Source: Diprion similis (taxonomy: Eukaryota > Arthropoda > Insecta > Hymenoptera > Diprionidae). Taken from it: 64,000 nt of DNA. How positions within the stretch are numbered: the stretch's first letter is position 1; each line of letters starts with the position of its first letter. A program made the translations under genes and the position numbers. The stretch is taken from the NCBI RefSeq assembly GCF_021155765.1, contig NC_060114.1:8129001-8193000 (forward strand), read 5' to 3'. Positions 651 through 3,600 of the stretch are shown here, one piece after another. The notes below the pieces were generated by a model, which worked only from the letters and a program-made list of their open reading frames with translations, was not told the DNA's origin and ran no database searches.

Positions 651-3600
651 CTATGAAAGTGATTTTAAAGTTTTGTTTTTCTCCTTCAAATTTTCAAATT
701 CGAGTAACGGTCGCTCACGTTATATAACTCAAACGCAGCAGGGATGAAGAATTGAATATCTTGCATAAAAGTAGACGAAATCTCATCAACGTGTCGTTAA
801 CAGCCTTCAAAGTGGATCGAATTTGAAATTCCGCTGTTATTTATAACTCCAACTGTCACTCTGACGCCAGACGCTACCGCCAGTTGGCGCGCGCCTCGCC
901 TCGTGCAACATCGTTTAAATAGATCCCATTTGAAAAGCGTTATATCCTAGATGTTCGGTCTTTTTTTTCAACAAAACTTCACTGCAGTTCGTTGTATTAA
1001 ATTGAATCACCAATAATTCGGACCATAAAAAATATACATTTTATGTAAGGTACCGAAGAGCAATAAGGCATAGAGTATGATAAGGTCTAATATAAGTATA
1101 AATTCATGAATGTTTACAATTCGAATGCATTTAGAAAATTATTTATAATCGTTTTATGGTTTTCCGAAAAGATGAAAAATCTTAGGCCGTAATAAACAAC
1201 CCAGGGCTTATTAGGCTACATAGCACCATTATTTTGTTTATGTTACATGAAGACAAAGAAGCAACCCTAGCTAACTTCATGAGACAATTATTTTTGAATA
1301 AAAATTATATAAAGCGATTCAAAATAAGGTAGGTCTTATTACCCTCCAGTACCATATAATCGATTTCGAAGTTACAGGAAAAAAAATAATCGAATTTGAT
1401 GGGATAACATTGCGAATATTTGTTTGGACTGAATTTCATTCATTCAGAATTTCAAATTAAACATCCTGCTGTGCTTGAACATGATCTGAATATGACATAA
1501 TATACATATATGCGGTACACATATAGAGAGATAATTATATGTAAAATAGTTTCATGTGAGAAAAGGGTGGGGTAAGTTTTGAGGTTAAGAAAATATGCAC
1601 GATATTGTTCTATAGTTGGAAGGATGCCACGAATGAGCTTGATATATTGAAGAAAGAAGAAGTGGAGCTGTGGGAGTTTAGTTAAACAACTATCCGCGTT
1701 CCGACGATTTACGTATTGTATTGTATACAAGTGTGCACGGATTATATGGATAGAAATTGAAAGGCAAGGTTTTGGATCTTCGACGCAAATTTCTTTTTCC
1801 AGTTTCTTCTTCTTTCTAATAATGTGTGTATATATTTACTAAACATGCCCATGCGCTTATTATTGTGACAACACACAAACTACATATATATGTTTTATAA
1901 AGTACCTATTTACATAATATGTCAACAAGCATCGGAATTTGCGGTGCATAACGCCCAATATGCAACACCATCGGAATGCACATTATGCAATATAGTGACA
2001 TATAATGTATACATCATATCGTATCATATCTTACAAATTTAAGCGTAGACGTAATATGCTATATATGTACTGTAACTATGTATAGTTTTATTATATTTTA
2101 TCAGATTGTGCTGTATTACCAAACGTTGTAAGGTAGGAGTGTATAAAAAAAATATAGTTTTTTCTGTATATTTTCGGTAGAATTTAAACAGCGATAAAAT
2201 ACTCGCAGAATATGAAAAAATTACAACATTCTCAAATTAGCACAATCCTAAAGACTCCTTCGAAATCTAAACATCTTTCCAGCGTATCCAATGGTTGAGT
2301 CTTTTGGACGTCTTTCAATAAATTTCAGTGGCTCTGAATTGTTCTAAAGAGTTTTCGCGTATGTGAGTCGTGTTTTTAGTTTCTTTTCCTTTTCTTAATT
2401 TTGTCCCACGCAAGATGACTGACATAACGACGAATCGTCGATTGAGAAAAACAAATATTGACAGAAACGACATTTTTCGTCAGCGTTCGAATTGTAAAAA
2501 TTATTGAAAAATTCGGATTTCAATACCAAGAGATAAAGAATAACCTAACCGAAGAATCAAAGTCGGTTAAAAAAGGTACTGCAGACTATTAGCCGCAGTC
2601 TAAACTGCGGCATACTTCACGCACATCATCATACCTCAACGGGAGGAGCGACTATCCACGATTCGGATGCCCTCCGTGCCATCAGCGCAGGGCTGCAAAG
2701 CAGAGCCTCCTCTTCCTCGTCCGGATCCGACCACAGCATGTTTAAAGGTTAACCGCGATTTTCGCGCGTGAATTTAAATTTCGAACGTTCGTCCGGCCCT
2801 CACGCCCTTCTTTGTGGCGTCTACTTCGCTCTAGATTTGAGATTCAGGCTCTAAAAAACGGAGGGAAACGTTTTGCCTTTCCCCCATACGGTCGATTGCT
2901 ACTTTATTTGAATCTGCTGGCGTAGCGTACTTAAATGCGTTCGATTTCACCGACAAACGGAAAGTTTGAACTTTAATTTGAATTCGAATTAGGAACACCG
3001 CGAGGACTTGATCCACTTTCACTCTGAGAGTGCGCCTGCGCGTTTTGATCCATGTCGTCGGTCGTCGAGGGTGTGTGTAAGTAATAATGATTAATAATAA
3101 TTATGGTGTGACCAACGGCGATGTGTCGTCGTTATCGCGTTGCCCGATTAATCTTTCCCATCAAGAATCGAAGATTAAGTCTGCCTGGTGAACATCTCCC
3201 GAGAACTGCTGACCGAGCGTTACCAACCGCCCGCCCCTGGCCCGGGTAACCCGAAAATAGATTCGCCCCACTATTTAAGCCGAAATAGCTGCTGCCGCCA
3301 TGCTCCTCACACCGATTCCTTTTGCAATTAGTCACTGCTGCGGCTGTGTAACACCAACGTTTTCACTCTATGCCTATATTTATGCACGGATACTCGTTAA
3401 CTCGAGACTTTCTATGCCAACTCGACCAGCGATTAACCCTGACCATCTAGAATTTGACCAACGATCTTTTTTTGCTTTACGTCTTCTTTGCTTGTACTTG
3501 ATTCTCTCGCATGTAAAACGTATTCTTCATTCTACAAACACCTATAATATTATTCGCATTGTATTTGAGACAAAGTTCACACCGTATATTAATTTTTTTT

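Follow-up and report, generated by a model that had tools for sequence, protein, structure and literature searches.

The 64,000-nucleotide stretch of the Diprion similis genome analyzed here (contig NC_060114.1, positions 8,129,001 to 8,193,000; hereafter the window), which belongs to an assembly of 269 Mb in 60 contigs (GCF_021155765.1), carries on its minus strand the gene jp, assigned by sequence to the junctophilin family. In muscle and nerve, junctophilins act as tethers between the endoplasmic reticulum (ER) and the plasma membrane. Inside an intron of about 12 kb, between the jp exons at 12898–12613 and 650–441, lies a 35-codon open frame (2739–2635, called the head below), which probably serves as first coding exon in a short isoform of jp. 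An alternative first exon giving a MORN-less, ER-anchored junctophilin is favored by the splice phase, the coding statistics, and a CpG-dense flank, and is in this sense partly supported.

The jp gene and its long form

The jp gene model was built from visible splice sites, with the methionine of MQQPQG taken as the start, other starts being possible. The features of the locus are the following, in window coordinates; negative numbers lie left of the window, and position 0 is the base immediately preceding base 1.

2635–2739, minus strand: head, candidate alternative first coding exon (frame translation, donor GAG/GTATGA in phase 0, codon statistics)
2749–2751, minus strand: in-frame TAA upstream of the head ATG, bounding the frame on its 5′ side (sequence reading)
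2740–3400, minus strand: GC- and CpG-rich flank, candidate promoter and 5′ untranslated region, with a TTAAATA-like motif at 3278 (composition)
2592–2611, minus strand: perfect 8-bp hairpin GCCGCAGT-TTAG-ACTGCGGC, just inside the intron 3′ of the head donor (predicted fold, z −2.89)
28263–28570, minus strand: exon A, beginning at the ATG chosen for the model, MORN (gene model)
24849–25060, minus strand: exon B, MORN (gene model)
17801–18102, minus strand: exon C (gene model)
17435–17602, minus strand: exon D (gene model)
15778–16818, minus strand: exon E, later MORN repeats followed by the alpha-helical and Q-rich divergent regions (both regions named by family layout)
14220–14539, minus strand: exon F, Q-rich divergent region (gene model)
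13904–14041, minus strand: exon G (gene model)
12613–12898, minus strand: exon H, the partner upstream of exon I in the long form, phase 0 (gene model)
441–650, minus strand: exon I, common to the long and short forms, 70 codons, charged pre-anchor segment, joins exon K
−93 to −179, minus strand: exon K, last exon, left of the window, ER anchor, ends in DWFSRQQLVMLVLFINISLALMFFKLLT and the stop

The long form is open over 1023 residues, begins with MQQPQG, and ends in DWFSRQQLVMLVLFINISLALMFFKLLT. Its MORN match in Pfam has an E value of 1.7e-32 and comprises seven stretches, while its first 478 residues match the structures of JPH1 (7rw4, E 2e-129) and JPH2 (7rxe, E 1.1e-128). The hydropathy maximum over 19 residues (2.42, VMLVLFINISLALMFFKLL) is located at the C-terminus, in agreement with the C-terminal tail anchor of junctophilins, and this segment is predicted to insert into the ER. 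The MORN repeats together with the predicted tail anchor place the gene in the junctophilin family.

The divergent region of jp (12613–12898 and 14220–16818) is rich in glutamine/asparagine over long stretches, and an extended run of glycines comes directly before the shared C-terminal exon. In the upstream direction, the frame of exon H stays open past its acceptor to an ATG at 12972 (MALSYCPKS..., 12613–12972), a possible further internal start of jp.

The head and its splice site

Read on the minus strand, the head consists of an ATG and 34 further codons and then runs into GTATGATG, and the gene model places it between exons H and I. A first-pass annotation of this DNA had claimed a 35-codon frame with its own ATG in the large jp intron, and the translation bears this out. 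It had further claimed an in-frame stop shortly upstream with no acceptor in between, and this also holds: going upstream from the ATG, the codons of this frame are AAC, TTA, and CCT and then the TAA at 2751–2749, with no AG between that TAA and the ATG, and the first AG 3′ of the ATG ends at 2716. Because of this TAA and the lack of an AG before the ATG, an in-frame entry into the head from upstream is possible only via AGs within the frame. The context of the start is TTAAACATG. The net charge of the head is −6, and that of its first 12 residues alone is also −6. The head and most of exon I were found as a single copy in the genome, the only other match having an E value of 3.19.

The head donor, GAG/GTATGA, has a score of 2.36 with a matrix built on only 13 local donors, and it outscores 6 of these 13; since the latter were scored leave-one-out, which lowers their values, the comparison is biased toward the head donor. 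Nine of the 620 GTs of the intron, the head donor among them, reach its score. The good phase-0 donor of the annotation is thereby retained, and its phase fits exon I. The end assigned to that exon is another matter, as it most likely lies at 441 (AAA/GTGCGT, score 2.78) rather than at 447 (CAG/GTTAAA, −2.35); the use of 441 adds the residues VK.

Coding statistics

Training of the codon score used 1271 codons from the window's other genes; the head reaches 0.746 bits per codon. The combination of frame, donor, and codon score was obtained in none of 600 shuffles of the intron and in none of 4000 shuffles of an 800-bp island; frame and donor by themselves are expected 0.08–0.09 times in that island. 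In random DNA of the island composition (frames of at least 35 codons, no donor required), 0.045%, 0.038%, and 0.14% of the ATG-open frames reach the score of the head for Markov orders 0, 1, and 2, respectively (n = 2201, 2641, and 2144). The raw score is partly a matter of plain composition, because the two other frames of the same stretch also score 0.52 and 0.71. Relative to an island-matched background, the head frame has a score of 0.33, compared to −0.05 and 0.10 for the other two.

Both strands of 93.7 kb were also surveyed for ATG-to-donor frames of at least 35 codons. This yielded 20 entries scoring at least 0.2, several of them nested, among which the head has the top score. Most of the other entries correspond to jp exons C, E, H, and I, to the genes at 42 and 48.7 kb (which are also part of the codon training set), and to long frames of the left neighbor of jp. 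The codon bias of the head suggests selection at the protein level.

Surroundings of the head in the intron

The eight most CpG-dense 400-bp segments of the intron start at 2400–3100, that is, over and upstream of the head, and rank in the top 4–13% of all 932 segments. On the basis of this CpG density, an active internal promoter in the flank is plausible. Loose initiator and downstream promoter element patterns have 10 and 25 matches, respectively, in 800 bp and carry little weight. Around the donor, the hairpin region (2592–2640) might, as judged from the predicted fold, regulate the use of the head exon.

Two further candidates for this part of the intron were considered and rejected. One is a repeat or mobile element, as 2500–3400 gave one match only in its own genome when very common words were left out of the search; the other is an RNA gene, the window giving no Rfam match at the gathering score and no tRNA. 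A short GC-rich, partly palindromic stretch (CGCCAGTTGGCGCGCGCC) is located at 841–900, in the intron near exon I.

The predicted short form

The head joined to exons I and K gives a short form of 133 residues (131 with the donor at 447), which contains one strongly hydrophobic segment, at its C-terminus. At the sequence level, it has its own first coding exon within an intron and a phase that allows splicing to the shared 3′ exons. Pfam finds no MORN repeat in it, the three matches obtained (best E 0.025, MerR-DNA-bind) being under the curated cut-offs, and a search of the PDB with the short form gave chance matches only (best E 1.5). Without MORN repeats, the short form would be no tether, although a product of the jp gene. 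The MORN-less junctophilin with acidic head and ER anchor that the annotation had proposed is recovered at the sequence level, with the anchor encoded by exon K, outside the window.

We infer the following for the transcription, promoter position, protein, location, and function of the short form. Its transcript would start inside the 12-kb intron, in the GC- and CpG-rich DNA at about 2740–3400, and splicing would join the head to exons I and K. The product would be a tail-anchored ER protein in which a unique acidic head is followed by the charged segment before the anchor and by the membrane anchor of junctophilins. As it has neither MORN repeats nor the alpha-helical region, it would be unable to tether the plasma membrane alone. 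It would most likely reach the ER–plasma-membrane junctions through its anchor and could pair there with full-length junctophilin, limiting or tuning the number of working tethers and thus acting as a brake, spacer, or organizer. The acidic head and an RRAS site, which we take to be a PKA-like motif, would be possible control points. Such a regulatory role at the junctions is conceivable, but we regard it as somewhat doubtful.

A review covering JPH1 (PMC8934682) bears on this scheme. It reports that GFP carrying nothing of JPH1 but its last 26 residues is targeted to the triads of muscle fibers, that bimolecular fluorescence of JPH1-TM fusions points to dimerization, and that the mobility of JPH1 is higher when all MORN repeats are missing. 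The targeting of the GFP-anchor fusion and the dimerization signal of JPH1-TM suggest that a natural anchor-only form could enter the junctions and pair there without adding a tether.

Comparison with flies and vertebrates

Three strings of the head peptide had no match in the literature searched. Among the matches listed (titles and abstract openings), no such junctophilin isoform was found besides that in a paper on Drosophila jp by Calpena and others. According to the passages available from that paper (PMC5818072), the fly gene has five transcripts with differing start sites, four of which encode the same 1054-residue protein, while the fifth has its own start site and a frame of 129 residues. 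The fifth transcript resembles the D. similis short form in that it comes from the same gene, has its own start site and a very short frame (129 versus 133 residues), and lacks most domains; it differs in that its authors judge it probably spurious and nonfunctional. These passages are silent on which end of the protein supplies the 129 residues. Since the tail shared after the head junction is 98 residues long, a fly form with a similar tail would, by length, leave a head of about 31 residues. A promoter-driven C-terminal junctophilin, presented in the first-pass annotation as something different from the known fragments, is therefore less novel than stated, a short fly transcript with its own start having already been annotated, though dismissed.

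For human genes, short mRNA variants are listed in AceView, of 1,880 bp for JPH1, 839 bp for JPH2, and down to 451 bp for JPH3 (PMC8934682). The passage is silent on what most of these mRNAs encode, so a vertebrate counterpart of the short form may exist.

Alternative explanations

A number of observations weigh against the head as a first exon or against the role proposed above. Neither a TATA box nor a TCAGT-type initiator is found within 2700–3500. In the predicted fold, the outer stem (2637–2631 with downstream bases) covers the head donor, and this pairing could weaken it. The joining region stabilizes mammalian junctophilin dimers according to the available passages (PMC8934682), and weaker pairing may accordingly be expected from a short form without this region. 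The likeness to the 129-residue fly form rests on length and start site, not on sequence. Finally, scans of bacterial and archaeal genomes and viral contigs gave no relative, a result that is uninformative on conservation because insects are not expected in those collections.

Two rival explanations are serious. The better of them, which we nevertheless consider unlikely, is that the transcript is real but functionless, a by-product made at a low level; the authors of the fly paper concluded this for theirs when they called it "probably spurious" and nonfunctional (PMC5818072). This verdict was argued from the missing domains, with no test of it in the parts of the paper covered, and the codon bias of the head points to selection at the protein level.

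The second, which appears somewhat less likely still, is that the open frame of the head arose by chance within a regulatory, GC-rich island of the intron, i.e., an enhancer or the promoter of a noncoding RNA. Frames that open with an ATG, span 35 codons or more, and have an equally good donor are expected 0.38 times (300 shuffles) or 0.42 times (600 shuffles) per intron, and one or more of them were present in 32% of 300 intron shuffles. With about 0.4 such frames expected by chance, the open frame and donor alone prove nothing. Every frame of the stretch scores well against the intron background, and the survey of 93.7 kb includes entries that are not truly coding, namely a wrong frame over exon B (0.60) and one antisense to exon E (0.45), as well as frames without assignment at 35227 (0.54), 32340 (0.26), and 50751 (two nested, 0.46 and 0.50). 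What speaks against chance is that only 0.04–0.14% of the composition-matched random frames attain the codon score of the head, that the combined criteria were never satisfied in the 4000 island shuffles, and that the fly gene has a transcript matching in size.

Also considered, and very improbable, is that the long form includes the head as an in-frame cassette exon, entered through an AG inside the head frame. Exon H, cassette, and exon I would remain in one frame if the AG ending at 2716, 2710, or 2707 were used, but these AGs are poor, with 6, 3, and 1 pyrimidines of 12 and all reading GAG, whereas the nine jp acceptors have 6–12 of 12 and none is GAG. The best AG (2693, 8 of 12 pyrimidines) shifts the frame into a stop. 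The cassette was rejected for these reasons, and it would also leave the CpG-dense upstream flank unexplained.

That the head is the first exon of the gene to the left of jp, which is on the same strand and whose LKEAIERECG exon is preceded by a phase-0 acceptor, can be practically dismissed, because that gene begins with an exon of its own (MLYVFHVDTGTT...), which lies past the end of jp at window −14167, and the nearest in-phase jp acceptor is that of exon I. By its N-terminal MLYVFHVDTGTT and YSAGTDTNP stretches and its coiled-coil-like frames, this same-strand neighbor, at about −14167 to −27300, resembles FIP200/RB1CC1 (Atg17).

Related systems and implications

A short isoform of jp that covers the C-terminus and is driven by an internal promoter would have precedents in the nesprins and ANK1 and, as far as the available sources go, would be new for junctophilin. 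The sAnk1.5 isoform arises from the internal P2 promoter of ANK1 (PMC10199891), which lies within an intron in the 3′ part of this large gene, and is a 17-kDa muscle protein anchored in the sarcoplasmic reticulum; in contrast to jp, whose two forms would have the anchor in common and the head only in the short one, the larger ANK1 forms have no anchor. In the short nesprins, also made from internal promoters (PMC3981789), the C-terminal anchor region is shared and the N-terminal part, which holds on to the other partner, is lost, but these are nuclear-envelope linkers and unrelated proteins. JPh44, the JPH1 fragment made by calpain (PMC9891728, preprint PMC12889840), is likewise a C-terminal junctophilin piece with the anchor; it is, however, about 44 kDa, enters nuclei or aggregates, and has no start exon of its own. 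In the passages seen from these sources, the known anchor-only or MORN-less junctophilins are engineered constructs, and the natural C-terminal pieces result from proteolysis.

As a tentative proposal, the fly transcript would be the orthologue of the D. similis short form, and a second junctophilin product with its own promoter, an anchor-only brake or organizer, would have been kept since before the split of flies and Hymenoptera. If the proposal is true, the published dismissal of the fly transcript would be overturned, and animals would make an anchor-only junctophilin partner on purpose, encoded in the gene and separately started.
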